A stretch of DNA of 64,000 nt from Nannobrachium achirus. Its lineage: Eukaryota; Chordata; Actinopteri; Myctophiformes; Myctophidae. Position 1 is the first letter of the stretch, and every line of letters starts with the position of its first letter. The notes beneath the pieces were generated by a model. It had not been told where the DNA came from, ran no database searches, and saw only the letters and a list, made by a program, of their open reading frames with translations. A program made the position numbers and the translations under genes. The stretch lies in NCBI GenBank assembly GCA_963921795.1, contig OY997661.1:39826122-39890121 (forward strand), in the 5' to 3' direction. Shown piece after piece: positions 9,717 through 61,611 of the stretch.

Positions 9717-10228
9717 CGGGGACGTGCTGGCCATTGGGAAAAGCGGGACAACTCCCGAACGGCCGGTTCATTCCCGGCCGGTCTAGGCCGGCCATTAGGA
9801 AAAAATTAAAAATTAAATGTCGGCCTTTGTTCCATTTTGGGGGCTGGGCGGCCAACAAAGTAAATCGTCACTGTCGGGCAGAAATCTCGTATCTCCAAGT
9901 TTCAAATTTATAATTTTTTTCGCAAAGCAAAACCCTGCTTCATCATACAAGGCCGTCTCACAAAAGTAGTGAAAACAGCAGATCTACAAGCACAGTGCTT
10001 GTAGATCGGCTGTTTTCACTAGTTTAAATCATTTTTTAAATTATAAATACAAAACAAACGGTTTTGGACATACAAGGTTTTTACAAAATTTTGTGACTTT
10101 TCATGATCTGAAATGGCAAATCTTTGAGTAGCAGCAGCGCTATAGAGAGAGATCTCTCTCTATAGCGCGCAATGAGGGCCTCTCCAACTCTTTTTCCCGG
10201 GCTGAATCAGGGGCCCAGCACGTCCCTG
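9717..10228. mobile_element. Family B transposon with central HPM
   Basis: Ends are CGGGGACGTGCTGG and CCAGCACGTCCCTG (inverted). Inside are a CTTGTATGTCC segment, an HPM hairpin and a CTATAGAGAGAGATCTCTC palindrome. Other copies are at 27015, 44219 and 58994. No open frame of interest. The superfamily is uncertain, although the CAGGGACGTG end resembles family C, which has 8-bp TSDs. Confidence 0.8.
9967..10021. repeat. HPM hairpin 1
   Basis: A 27-bp arm on each side with a 1-base centre. Outer ends are TAGTGAAAACAGC and GCTGTTTTCACTA. The single arm mismatch is GCAGATC versus GATCGGC. Confidence 0.92.
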
Positions 10229-10330
10229 ATTGCCCAGCTTTATGGTACAAGCACTGCTCTGTGGGACATGTCTGGCGGATTCAGAGAAAACTAGATAACG
10301 TCAAAATATAAACGAATCTCCGCCACTGAC
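10229..10330. repeat. 102-bp direct repeat, right copy
   Basis: Right partner of 9615-9716. It begins immediately after the family B terminus CGTCCCTG. Confidence 0.9.
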
Positions 10331-10385
10331 TGTATTCAGGCACAGGCGTCACACTGTAAGAAGCATAATTTATTCTGCAGCCTAC

Positions 10386-10497
10386 CTTGGCTCTCCACCA
10401 GGTCTTTCTTCTTGCTGTTGCTATCACAGCTCACATGAAAGAAGCTGAAGAGGAGATGGTGCCTCTCGTGGAGCTGAGTCGGCAACTCTATCTTTAT
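10386..10497 (-). CDS. dock9: DOCK9 exon (last in window): DHR-1 core
   Basis: Encodes [20 protein letters not shown], then [17 protein letters not shown], plus one base of the next codon. This is the conserved middle of the DHR-1 (C2-like) domain, which in DOCK proteins binds phosphoinositides and helps place them on membranes. The acceptor is TTTCCAAG and the donor G|GTAGGC. Length is 112 bp (37 codons + 1), in phase with the previous exon. The segment after SNSK looks shorter than in mammalian DOCK9. The following exon, expected to start V/GYxWLPLLKDG, is not found in the 10.4 kb to the left edge, so the next intron is longer than that. Confidence 0.93.
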
Positions 10498-10767
10498 CTT
10501 GGAAACGGGAGAGTTTGAAAAAACAAAACAAAACAAAACACAGTATTATGCTGGGCTGAGCCCACCGATACAGAGAAAATGTCAGGTTGGAGAATGAAAC
10601 ATTATCCGTGGAGCATTTCTGTTGAGGATTTGCAAAGTTTATAGATAATCCCGCAACTTCAGAGCGGGTGACTTCAATACAAAAACAAGCTTTATCCTAG
10701 AAAAGCACTTAAAACTAAGCCTTTCTTTGAAGGCAGACAGAGAAATAGATAGATACATCCTTACTTT
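10498..10767. other. Intronic, nothing recognised
   Basis: Contains a short (AAAAC)n run near 10518. Otherwise unique-looking sequence. Confidence 0.4.
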
Positions 10768-11190
10768 TTTTTTTAAAGAGGTGGTGCCATAGTTTTGTAC
10801 TGTTTCTGGTTTTCATGTGTCTATGAGGTTGACAGTATTTCATTAGACCCCCTGGTGTGGTTGTTATGAGCAATTATGTATTCCCTTTGTATTTTGGGTT
10901 TCTTCCTGGAGGCTGCCACCTTGTGGGTCAAAAGTGCCGATCCAAAAACACAGATGGTGACATCATATAATCATCCCCTCCCCTTTTACCATTCACCCAA
11001 CACTGTGGGTGTGGCTAAATTCAGCTGGGTTACCACCCACCATGACATCCATGCCTACTTAATGAACTGGTGGGTGTGGCCACATAAAAACCTAATTTTA
11101 ACTCTTTCTGTACACTTTTTTGGGAAGAAAATCTCCCTCCTAGGGTTTTTTAGGGGGAGGGGAAATCATGGCACCCCATCTTTAAAGGTA
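10768..11190. mobile_element. MITE with TTTAAAGA..GGTGCCA ends
   Basis: The left end TTTAAAGAGGTGGTGCCAT and right end TGGCACCCCATCTTTAAA are imperfect inverted repeats about 420 bp apart. No transposase. Superfamily unknown. Confidence 0.6.
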
Positions 11191-11395
11191 GGGACTTTAA
11201 AAACAATCTTAGCTATTACTAGTCTGTGATTTGAGTTGGCGCTATGTATGGACACCTCCTAATCAATCAACAAATCAATCAGAATGTTGCCCTCACCCAC
11301 ATCTCTTTAAGGAATTAAGGAACATACAGTATCAGTGACCTATCAGATGCCTATTCCTGAGATACTATATGACCGATTATGTCATTCTCTTGTCT

Positions 11396-11607
11396 CTTAA
11401 AGGGCCAGTTCACCTCTGGGACAACCAGATCTTATTTTATTGTTGTTTGGGAGAAGATCAACACAATCCTGAGTTATACTTTGTGTTCAATCTGTGTTTT
11501 GAGATATTTTAGTATTTCAGCATGAATGATGATGCATTTTGCATCATATGAGTCATCATGCTGCATCATACAGTATGATGCAAAAGAGGTGTACTGGCCC
11601 TTTAAGT
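11396..11607. mobile_element. Small palindromic MITE
   Basis: Ends CTTAAAGGGCCAGTTCAC and GTACTGGCCCTTTAAG are inverted. The interior is rich in GATGATGCA/TGCATCATC symmetry. Confidence 0.65.
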
Positions 11608-11689
11608 TATCATCTCTTTGGGGCAGCCTACTGATAATTCCCACCAAGTTATATGAACATCCGCTCCCCATCCATTCATATGTAAACGA

Positions 11690-11869
11690 AACACACACGC
11701 ACGCACGCACGCACGCACGCACACACACACACACACACACACACACACACACACACACACACACACACACACACACACACACACACACACACACACACAC
11801 ACACACACACACACACACACACACACACACACACACACACACACACACACACACACACACACACACACA
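11690..11869. repeat. (ACGC)n(AC)n microsatellite, ~180 bp
   Basis: A compound dinucleotide repeat in the DOCK9 intron, 115 bp beyond the donor of the exon at 11984-12076. The overlapping long open frames are dipeptide artefacts. Confidence 0.97.
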
Positions 11870-11983
11870 GAGCGCAGAGGAGCAATCACAATACCACGCA
11901 AGGCTGCGGGCAGGGTAATTGACTCGGCCATGGATTTAAACAACAGATATGTTTGTTTTAAAACGACCTCCGCATGTTTCTAC

Positions 11984-12076
11984 CTCGTCATAGAACTCGG
12001 GATTCTGTTGGTGGTGGAGGACTGCTGCATAGGCCTGCTTGGTGAAGAGAGCTCCCCCCGGACGCCCATAGATGCA
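11984..12076 (-). CDS. dock9: DOCK9 exon: DHR-1
   Basis: Exactly 31 codons, [20 protein letters not shown] followed by [11 protein letters not shown], bounded by TTTTGCAG and GTAGAA. This DHR-1 segment is among the most conserved in the DOCK-D subfamily and joins in phase to the exons at 12749 and 10386. The donor GTAGAA is weaker than GTRAGT. Confidence 0.96.
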
Positions 12077-59708: not shown

Positions 59709-59847
59709 CTGTGGATAGACAGAAAGCAGGCATGAAAAACAGGCCCGATGTAGCAGCTCCAGGGGCGTCACAAGGGGGGGAGGAGTGGGACTGAGTTACT
59801 GGGGCCCAAGGTGGAAGGGCCTTAATTATTTTATACTTTAGCTATTG

Positions 59848-59920
59848 AAAAATAGCAGATGTACAAGCTCACAGCGCGGCACCGAGTGCCGCGCTGCGAG
59901 CTCGTAGATCTGCTATTTTT
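59848..59920. repeat. HPM hairpin 40
   Basis: 73 bp, inner stem GCGGCACCGAGTGCCGC. Confidence 0.95.
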
Positions 59921-60158
59921 TAAAAGTCATGAAAATGTGCGCAAATCTTTGAATATATGTATTTTTTTAAGCGAACGTTTGTAACTCAAAATTTTCTTCT
60001 GGGGGGTCCCTGGAACAAAATATTTTGAGATGGGGGTCCGTGGCCGAATACATATCATTTTGGGGGTCCTTGACATGAAAAAGTTTGAGCACCACTGACA
60101 TAGAAACATATGGTTTTTTTTTTTACTTCAAAGACTACACAAATGTTCACGATTTTTA

Positions 60159-60231
60159 AAAAATAGCAGATATACAAGCTCGCAGCGCGGCACTCGGTGC
60201 CGCGCTGTGAGCTTGTATATCTGCTATTTTT
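60159..60231. repeat. HPM hairpin 41
   Basis: 73 bp, inner stem GCGGCACTCGGTGCCGC, the inverted partner of hairpin 40. Both arms read GATATAC/GTATATC. Confidence 0.96.
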
Positions 60232-60475
60232 CAATAGTTAGAGCACAAAATAACGCAGTGAATCCTTGTACCCAGGGCCCAGAATTTGGTGCGACACCCC
60301 TGGGCAGCTCACTGTGACAGATCCACACCTACTGGTGTTTGGAAACAACTGTGGAATTTACTCACATATGTGAGGCCCACTCCCCGTTTTTGGACCGACC
60401 CTCGAGTGAAGTGTTTTGTTCCGAAATGAAATACTACTGCTTAATATGAAACACAACAACACTACAGTAATACAA

Positions 60476-60808
60476 TAAAGCCCCTATCAAAGTAGGCACC
60501 GCGGTGATAAGCTATCCACCGCGGTGTAGTCTTTTCAAGTCATAAAAATACAACATTGCGTCATTACTCGCGGTGAAGAGCTATCCACCGCGAACCCCGA
60601 CACACCTCTCTGTTTTTACTTTCAGACAGATCGACCCATCACCCCGTTCACTGATTGGTCGATCTAGACCAGTCAGTCACAGTGAGAGGACTTCACCGTG
60701 ACTGACTATGATGGCCTCCACTTATTTTCTCACTTTAGGTGGATAGCTTTACACCTAAAATCTACGGTGAATAGCTCTTCACCCTGGACTCTGATAGAGG
60801 CTTAATAA
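60476..60808. mobile_element. MITE, AAGCCCCTATCA ends
   Basis: AAAGCCCCTATCAAAGT and ACTCTGATAGAGGCTTA are inverted. CACCGCGGTG palindromes and GAGCTATCCACCGCG words are inside. Confidence 0.75.
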
Positions 60809-61151
60809 GTCCATCTTGAAGGATAGTTTCTATTCTAACTGATGATCTTGGCTGACCAAATATAAACAAGTTCGCATTGTGGACGCTGTTTGCTGGATGC
60901 TATCGAAGGTCATGATTTTGGTTCAGCATGGATACACATTCAGATTGTTTGGAAATATTCTGTTATCATAATACAGTATTGTTAATGCTCGCATCTAGGC
61001 AGTGGAATGATATTTTGAGGTAAACGAAGGAAATCAGAGGAACTTTACCCATTTTTCTCCACACTTTAGTAGTTATGCTAAATGTCAAGCCCATCTGTAT
61101 TGGGGTAAAATATAAGGACACAATAATGAGACAGAGACAACAACAAAGATC
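60809..61151. other. Intronic, nothing recognised
   Basis: Unique-looking. Confidence 0.4.
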
Positions 61152-61211
61152 TTAACCTATTCAGAACGGGTACACATTATTGTGTATCATTATTTTAAGC
61201 TTCAACCATTG

Positions 61212-61284
61212 AAAAATAGCAGATATACAAGCTCACAGCGCGGCACCGAGTGCCGCGCTGCGAGCTTGTAGATCTGCTATTTTT
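61212..61284. repeat. HPM hairpin 42
   Basis: 73 bp, inner stem GCGGCACCGAGTGCCGC. Confidence 0.95.
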
Positions 61285-61550
61285 GAAAAATCGTGAAAAT
61301 TAGAATTCTGACCCGATTCTATAAGTGTCTTTTGAATCCTTCTAAGGTTTTTTTTGAAAAACCCTATGTTTCTATGTCAGCAACCTGGCAAGCTATCATC
61401 AAAGAAAAGGTCCTTTTCCCCAAAATGATATTTATTTGGCCACGGACCCCCATCTCAAAATATTTAGTTCCAAGCAAAATTTGAGTTACAAACGTTCGCT
61501 CTGAAAAATACATATATTCAAAGATTTGCACACATTTTCACGACTTTTTC

Positions 61551-61611
61551 AAAAATAGCAGATCTACAAGCTCGCAGCGCGGCACCGAGAGCTTGTATAT
61601 CTGCTATTTTT
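61551..61611. repeat. HPM hairpin 43 (shortened stem)
   Basis: Left arm through GCGGCACCGAG, then directly AGCTTGTATATCTGC. Confidence 0.9.

Follow-up and report, generated by a model that had tools for sequence, protein, structure and literature searches.

The human palindromic element MADE1, a micro-MITE (miniature inverted-repeat transposable element), has a mariner parent and a TA target duplication, and zebrafish Angel is an independent element that has ends of its own. For Angel, a foldback model in which a stem-loop is inserted via local homology is outlined in part of PMC12628747, and sections of PMC8794818 and PMC3820800 describe template switching as a process that creates and mends hairpin stems. 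Non-autonomous transposons are usually defined by their ends and their interiors are called filler; here, one palindrome links many families. We describe this palindrome, a hairpin found in a 64,000-nucleotide stretch of the fish Nannobrachium achirus (GenBank assembly GCA_963921795.1, contig OY997661.1, positions 39,826,122 to 39,890,121, forward strand; hereafter the window). It is a single homologous, discrete unit common to many element families, which are lettered and described below. The founders of these families differ by paired-arm change, and later copies decay mostly arm by arm.

A discrete 71-bp unit

When the unit is anchored on AAAATAGC...GCTATTTT, complete copies from families A, K, C, D and E and from the lineage at 29050 are exactly 71 bp long, with 35 base pairs and one centre base. 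A larger set of 356,642 bases of the host genome, made up of the window, random pieces and hairpin-centred pieces, holds 209 hairpins, 131 of them with both arms; the span is 71 bp in 73 of these 131, shorter in 49 and longer in nine. A stable single-strand DNA hairpin is predicted in all six lineages folded, with DNA fold energies of -34 to -47 kcal/mol for the lineage representatives versus -8 to -12 kcal/mol for shuffles, and RNA fold energies of -56 to -72 kcal/mol.

At pair 9, an A on one arm faces a C on the other. Every one of the nine families has copies with this mismatch, and in seven of them it affects half or more of the copies (K 7/8, M 7/8, G 5/7, D 5/6, H 3/5, C 2/3 and E 2/4), the frequencies in I and A/F being 6/17 and 1/49. 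Such a shared mismatch favours common descent of the unit and disfavours the idea that every transfer recopied an entire arm.

Within a family, the arms also pair beyond the unit, at 80% over 6 bases, 74% over 8 and 63% over 10 (nine families). Outer bases compared across families match at 30-31%, and none of 20,000 permutations reached the within-family level. Depending on the host family, 5 to 8 of the first 10 outward bases match, and the contiguous outward run of the family majority is longest in D (8), G and E (6 each) and K (5), falling to two bases in H, M and C, one in A and none in I. Longer outward palindromes are found in single copies, for example TCATGTGCTG at 18604. A distant relationship among the outer arms of K, H, C, E and A is possible.

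Paired change between families and single-arm decay within them

Pairwise comparison of six window lineages gave 64 pairs changed on both sides, 55 of them still Watson-Crick, versus 62 changed on one side. By comparison with their own consensus, 17 window copies from three families had no two-sided and 34 one-sided changes. Across eight lineages, 13 pairs were altered on both sides versus 4.3 ± 1.6 when shuffled (0/500), and among eleven family A copies one pair was so altered versus 0.7 expected.

A larger test took in 61 copies from the eight families that had three or more full units, each family being scored against a grand consensus. At this level 16 pair changes were two-sided and 16 one-sided; Watson-Crick pairing was retained in 14 of the former, and 10 of the latter fell at pair 9, which is mismatched in the consensus, or at pair 35, beside the centre. 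Scored against their own families, the 61 copies had 12 two-sided changes (6 still paired) versus 140 one-sided (Fisher p 1.4e-7, a value that overstates certainty and is a guide only, because copies and families are not independent). The two-sided/one-sided counts within families were 2/55 in A/F, 2/21 in I, 0/8 in K, 7/16 in M, 1/8 in G, 0/13 in H, 0/8 in E and 0/11 in C. In the spreading lineages, the halves of the hairpin changed in concert, and something therefore seems to hand it from transposon to transposon and keep it foldable. This contrast between and within families could serve as a general test for the upkeep of palindromes during spread.

Copy number in the window and the genome

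Hairpin loci were called by scanning the window with an nhmmer profile built from seven hairpins and merging matches at E < 5. This gave 50 loci, 49 of which were retained after 21409 (E 1.4) was dropped; 45 have E < 1e-3, and the remaining four (37533, 45511, 57105 and 58744) have E values of 0.005-0.2. Both arms, each agreeing with the core at at least 12 of 17 scored bases, are present in 36 of the 49. A first-pass annotation of this DNA had counted about 45 copies, about 33 with two arms, between 9967 and 61611. Both counts are thus exceeded, and its span holds for every locus but one, a decayed copy at 4455 (E 2.9e-9). The hairpins, none with an assigned strand, are as follows.

4456 to 4527: decayed, no recognised host (E 2.9e-9)
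9972 to 10016: centre lost, K nested in B
12267 to 12321: F/A left
12553 to 12583: remnant, F/A right
13717 to 13787: 71 bp, A left
14145 to 14215: 71 bp, A right
17061 to 17131: 71 bp, D
18614 to 18661: inner stem decayed, outer arms TCATGTGCTG, no host assigned
19096 to 19137: decayed, D
20717 to 20787: 71 bp, A
21148 to 21218: 71 bp, A
23490 to 23538: centre lost, G (CAGTGGTG)
24293 to 24363: 71 bp, A
24720 to 24791: 72 bp, A
25096 to 25166: 71 bp, solo K
26439 to 26494: I
27256 to 27316: one arm partly deleted, K in B
29050 to 29120: 71 bp, H
30597 to 30667: 71 bp, F/A
30854 to 30894: remnant, F/A right
31250 to 31320: decayed, K relative
31782 to 31871: internal duplication, solo K
35551 to 35621: 71 bp, E
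36334 to 36379: centre lost, solo K
37533 to 37595: decayed, K relative (E 0.005)
38918 to 38988: F/A
39227 to 39255: remnant, F/A
39786 to 39856: 71 bp, F/A
40058 to 40118: F/A right
42068 to 42138: 71 bp, F/A right
43101 to 43171: 71 bp, C
43721 to 43758: inner stem lost, P (CAGTGTT ends; P by flank reading)
44454 to 44524: 71 bp, K in B
45514 to 45535: single-arm remnant, E (E value 0.034)
45842 to 45893: remnant, possible K relative
47394 to 47464: 71 bp, C
50375 to 50446: decayed, no host assigned
53129 to 53187: centre lost, F/A
53833 to 53903: 71 bp, C
55957 to 56007: centre lost, A
56327 to 56390: E
57107 to 57146: weak remnant (E value 0.2)
57804 to 57874: decayed, flank in common with L017:615
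58743 to 58782: centre lost, C (E value 0.033)
59233 to 59303: 71 bp, K in B
59849 to 59919: 71 bp, F/A left
60160 to 60230: 71 bp, F/A right
61213 to 61283: 71 bp, A left
61552 to 61610: centre lost, A right

Single-arm matches with one mismatch number 37 in the window versus 1, 0, 1, 0 and 0 in five Markov simulations, and the strict two-arm pattern has 8 window matches versus none in 100 dinucleotide shuffles. A chance origin was rejected, both kinds of control lying far below the observed hairpin density. Across the source genome (1,658,514,493 bp), there are 237,633 occurrences of the exact 17-base core (118,570 forward and 119,063 reverse), and the backward core, used as a control, does not occur at all. 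Twenty 10-kb pieces, one at 5 Mb on each of contigs C1-C20, contain 72 hairpins at E < 1e-3, or 0.36 per kb, which extrapolates to about 6x10^5 per genome, a rough estimate because the spread is uneven (0 to 10 hairpins a piece) and L032 includes a duplicated stretch. With 45 hairpins in 64 kb, the window has roughly double the density of these pieces. At 0.36 per kb and at most 71 bp each, hairpins could account for up to 2-3% of the 1.66-Gb genome.

The hairpin was not found in viral contigs, where the exact core gave four chance-like single-arm matches and the two-arm pattern none; in bacterial genomes, the two-arm pattern gave two chance-like matches only. A scan of the window against Rfam returned no match at gathering score, and a full-text literature query with six arm strings returned nothing on the hairpin, merely unrelated work on microalgae.

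Host elements

Flanks in the 357 kb fall into 26 clusters, ten of which have at least three members and nine of these are named (3 to 49 members); the figure of 26 overcounts families, because some clusters are pieces of A or E. The hosts in the window are A, F, K (alone or nested in B), C, D, E and G, and further contexts comprise H, I, M, P, Q (round L030:2797) and others. Representative host copies in the window are listed here.

9717 to 10228, plus strand: host B with nested K
13656 to 14259, plus strand: host A, TTAACCC...GGGTTAA, hairpin in both long inverted ends
16813 to 17238, plus strand: host D, TAGGGATGGGACGAT ends
23256 to 23883, plus strand: host G, CAGTGGTGTAAAGTAACT...CCACCACTG
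25012 to 25272, minus strand: host K, solo, hairpin near centre
30493 to 31030, plus strand: host F, CAGGGGCGTC ends, A-derived interior, 8-bp duplication AGGCCATA
38866 to 39342, plus strand: host F, 8-bp duplication GCAGTATT
56240 to 56513, minus strand: host E, CAGTGGTTCTCAACC-type end
58439 to 58844, minus strand: host C, 8-bp duplication ATCTCCTC

The signature of piggyBac elements is a TTAA target with CCC...GGG ends, and that of hAT elements is CAG/TAG-type ends with an 8-bp target duplication. On this basis we take family A to be piggyBac-like, its copy at 13656-14259 matching the signature, and, tentatively, F, B, C, D, E, G, H, I, M and P to be hAT-like, as judged from ends or duplications; in D, E, G, I, M and P the ends alone were seen. 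Family F combines CAGGGGCGTC ends with an interior from A and has an 8-bp duplication in two copies, as C has in one. Family K, with ends near ATATCGTCGTTGTCGGGTGGAAACC, is found solo or inside B and is dispersed separately, and the hairpin of B sits within K. Family H is marked by TAGGGCTGTCA, and one of its L030 copies has, by reading, the 8-bp duplication CCTTACGG; I is marked by CAGGGGTCTTCAAC; M has a CAGGGGTGGGCAAC-like end and two subfamilies; and P has CAGTGTTGATTTTG (CAGTGTT ends), the hairpin at 43721 being assigned to it by reading its flank against L079. In A a hairpin lies close to each end, in C close to a single end, and in K at the centre. An automatic host search covering 41 of the 49 window hairpins returned plausible hosts, each bearing a 7-8 bp duplication, for four of them (two F, one C and one B).

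Comparison of the flanks of 27 window loci showed links only for A and F, for the K relatives and, weakly, for D and 26437, other high scores being simple repeats or adjacent elements. In a flank test on nine families, 7 of 36 pairs scored above the highest of eight shuffles, with about 4 expected by chance, and the best excess was for I and D. A stretch of about 22 bp to the left of the hairpin, seemingly shared by G and A, was unsupported (score 94 versus a shuffled maximum of 101, outer 8 bases skipped). Because flank comparisons show so few links, at least eight contexts carry the same unit without shared flanks. The first-pass annotation had placed the hairpin in at least seven unrelated families. 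Many contexts do have unrelated flanks, but A is nested in F and K in B, and the 'CTGCCTCTAATATTTG repeat' of its family list turned out to be internal sequence from an element whose ends are of the CAGTGGTTCTCAACC type. Also missing from that list were H (29050), I (26439) and relatives of K, two at 31250 and 37533 and a possible one at 45842. Its statement that no hairpin lies in an exon holds for two DOCK-like open reading frames (ORFs), the two that the check covered. These are minus-strand ORF fragments at 33654-34178 and 47925-48287 that resemble exons, presumably of a DOCK9/DOCK11-type gene.

Near-identical direct repeats far longer than an 8-bp target duplication lie round three B copies and one F copy. 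They flank B at 9615-9716/10229-10330 (102 bp, 92% identical), at 26931-27014/27416-27499 (84 bp, 93% identical) and at 58994-59560 (about 17 bp), and F at about 12141-12174/12655-12690 (about 35 bp). Elsewhere, at L024:6855-6938 and 9510-9629, two adjacent hairpins, one of E and one single-arm, occur at each of a pair of mirror-image loci separated by about 2.6 kb.

Unit ends and loss of the hairpin

By-eye inspection across families found no target-site duplication of consistent length at the unit ends. TA borders the GTG-ended palindrome on each side in K, H and ctx13 and on a single side in A, C and E; other candidate duplications at the ends are TTCT in E, TGT in D and TGA in A, the founder events being old. 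By eye, no duplication at the unit ends was seen in G, I, M and C.

Exact-pattern counts gave 159 K copies in which 16 bases or fewer remain between the outer arms and 124 E copies in which 26 or fewer remain. Among the first 100 of each listed, there are many different remnants, some of them recurrent, and joining at short repeats could account for the recurrent ones. In the young family Q, scoring 40 of the 1138 candidate places yielded 76 matches, left and right matches often lying 60 bp apart, as expected with the hairpin between them. Six Q copies were read, of which four have the hairpin and two have different deletions, and the hairpin-free copies were therefore rejected as empty sites. 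A hairpin-free K copy in L029 was likewise rejected as a clean empty site in view of the spectrum of remnants among K copies, and the hairpin at L030:2797 was rejected as a solitary insertion in unique DNA, its flanks being those of family Q. Neither a clean empty site nor a pre-insertion allele was found among the reduced K, E and Q copies inspected. Because the reduced copies show varied deletions, absence of the hairpin mostly looks like loss, and its frequent deletion offers a natural record of palindrome instability.

Two further copies depart from these patterns. In L017, a G copy has an unrelated middle with no hairpin remnant. In an A copy, the telomere motif GGGTTAGGGTTAG, at about 41660-41676, replaces the left hairpin and contains the sole GGGTTAGGG in the window; we infer a resemblance to break repair with telomere repeat. 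The nearly identical copies of the Q locus (L030:2650-3000 and L097) carry, besides the hairpin, a second, different palindrome, AGTCGCCTCTCCACAGTGGAGAGGCGAC.

Origin of the hairpin

The data require separate entry of the hairpin into many hosts, at differing positions and well paired each time. The first-pass annotation had proposed that the module moves between transposons or is repeatedly captured or selected; the occurrence of a homologous unit in many unrelated families agrees in part with this. The reading that we tentatively prefer is that a foldback cassette may have been captured repeatedly by non-autonomous transposons, with its pairing kept in the lineages that propagated. An internal break or a replication stall in such a transposon would let synthesis switch into an existing hairpin, guided by a few bases of homology; one hairpin would be copied, and synthesis would continue on the folded nascent strand. 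This route would leave no target-site duplication and would extend the palindrome into host-specific bases. The hairpin would in this way have entered the founders of many unrelated non-autonomous families, and the families' own transposases would then have multiplied it. Founding lineages would keep the stem paired by selection on the foldable form, by template-switch repair in which one arm serves to restore the other, or by both. After fixation in place, the arms would decay mostly independently and the palindrome would often be partly deleted.

If foldback capture is right, the unit would be a mobile module that parasitises transposons, and the idea of foldback amplification for palindromic fish elements becomes testable with thousands of events. 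In its boldest form, which we regard as unlikely, the cassette would be a transposon parasite of 71 bp, with neither ends nor a gene of its own, that template-switches between superfamilies, is kept foldable and rides the transposases of some ten host families to hundreds of thousands of copies.

Several observations weigh against repeated capture. The pair 9 mismatch would be erased by whole-arm copying at every hop, unless such copying were partial, and the constant 71-bp length fits a self-contained element better than captured filler. A long contiguous outward palindrome is found only in D, G, E and K, and neither a capture event in progress nor a pre-insertion allele was caught. As for the paired changes, family M, with its two subfamilies, shows the weakest contrast, and among the 16 two-sided changes at family level, three are identical (pair 30 in I, K and E) and may be one event.

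A self-contained micro-MITE, with two terminal inverted repeats set head to head as in MADE1, moved by an unknown transposase and landing repeatedly in other transposons, is a serious though less probable alternative, in which two-arm changes between subfamilies would reflect ends co-evolving with the transposase. MADE1 is alike in architecture and size, with two 37-bp repeats round 6 bp in the part of PMC1784062 that describes it, and the discrete unit with its 35-bp arms and single centre base, together with the TA seen by eye at its borders, would suit such an element. Its termini, however, are not constant: the outer bases are family-specific, the reverse of normal terminal repeats, and inspection found no single-length target-site duplication across families. 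Foldback capture explains both the family-specific ends and the lack of a constant target duplication, and it agrees with the model put forward for Angel (PMC12628747) and with filler in hAT elements (PMC3260210).

It is improbable that the hairpin was instead kept for a DNA function in its hosts, a cruciform or single-strand hairpin that helps excision, re-replication or escape from silencing, so that carriers arising by any route outcompeted non-carriers. The deep DNA folds of the six lineages relative to shuffles, the retention of pairing in family founders more than in later copies and the presence of the hairpin in both hAT-like and TTAA hosts are consistent with such a role. Against it, hairpin-free copies persist in K, E, G and Q, though mostly visibly decayed, and because the hairpin position differs between hosts, a shared transposase contact is unlikely.

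Selection on a transcribed RNA hairpin, as a substrate of Dicer/Drosha or similar, appears slightly more improbable still. The RNA folds are deep, a constant pair 9 mismatch would suit a processed stem, and miR-548 genes arose from MADE1, according to part of PMC1784062. The window, however, has no Rfam match at gathering score, and the arms are near-perfect over 35 bp, which is siRNA-like and not miRNA-like. Descent of all hosts from one ancestral hairpin-bearing element, a finding that would have overturned the first-pass proposal, is very improbable and largely refuted by the flank comparisons: A lies inside F, K inside B, the K relatives are linked and I and D are weakly alike, but the ends differ and the flanks on both sides are unrelated in at least eight contexts.

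Other palindromic structures in the window

Near-identical translated sequence occurs in inverted orientation at 105-440 and 7078-7413, round 17/25-bp tandem arrays of opposite sense; the tandem arrays in the first 7.5 kb lie at 507-1671, 2319-2677 and 5669-6959. The first 7.5 kb of the window is possibly one large inverted repeat. A 259-bp inverted repeat at 46238-46496 and 46665-46923, 98% identical and 168 bp apart, is a recent element or foldback. Another palindromic repeat family occurs at 19944-20151 and 52162-52823, one copy having a perfect 71-nt inverted repeat.

Comparison with described systems

MADE1, as characterised in part of PMC1784062, resembles the present hairpin in being a non-coding, near-perfect two-arm palindrome of about 80 bp that forms a strong hairpin. 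Its ends are fixed, whereas the ends here vary with the host family, and those copies here that can be placed lie mainly inside other transposons. Angel, a foldback MITE of zebrafish, shares the fish host and the ability to fold back, and its amplification via a folded nascent strand is proposed in a portion of PMC12628747. The hairpin here differs as a module within many elements, and the likeness to Angel drawn here is one of description. Maize Ds-like non-autonomous hAT elements have interiors of captured filler DNA that, in the relevant section of PMC3260210, is diverse and occasionally gene-derived, in contrast to the one recurring 71-bp palindrome with kept pairing found here. Template-switch mutation, as treated in parts of PMC8794818 and PMC3820800, accounts both for two-arm changes and for the outward extension of imperfect palindromes. 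As a general process it acts on all copies, whereas two-arm change in the present hairpin is far commoner between founders than within families.

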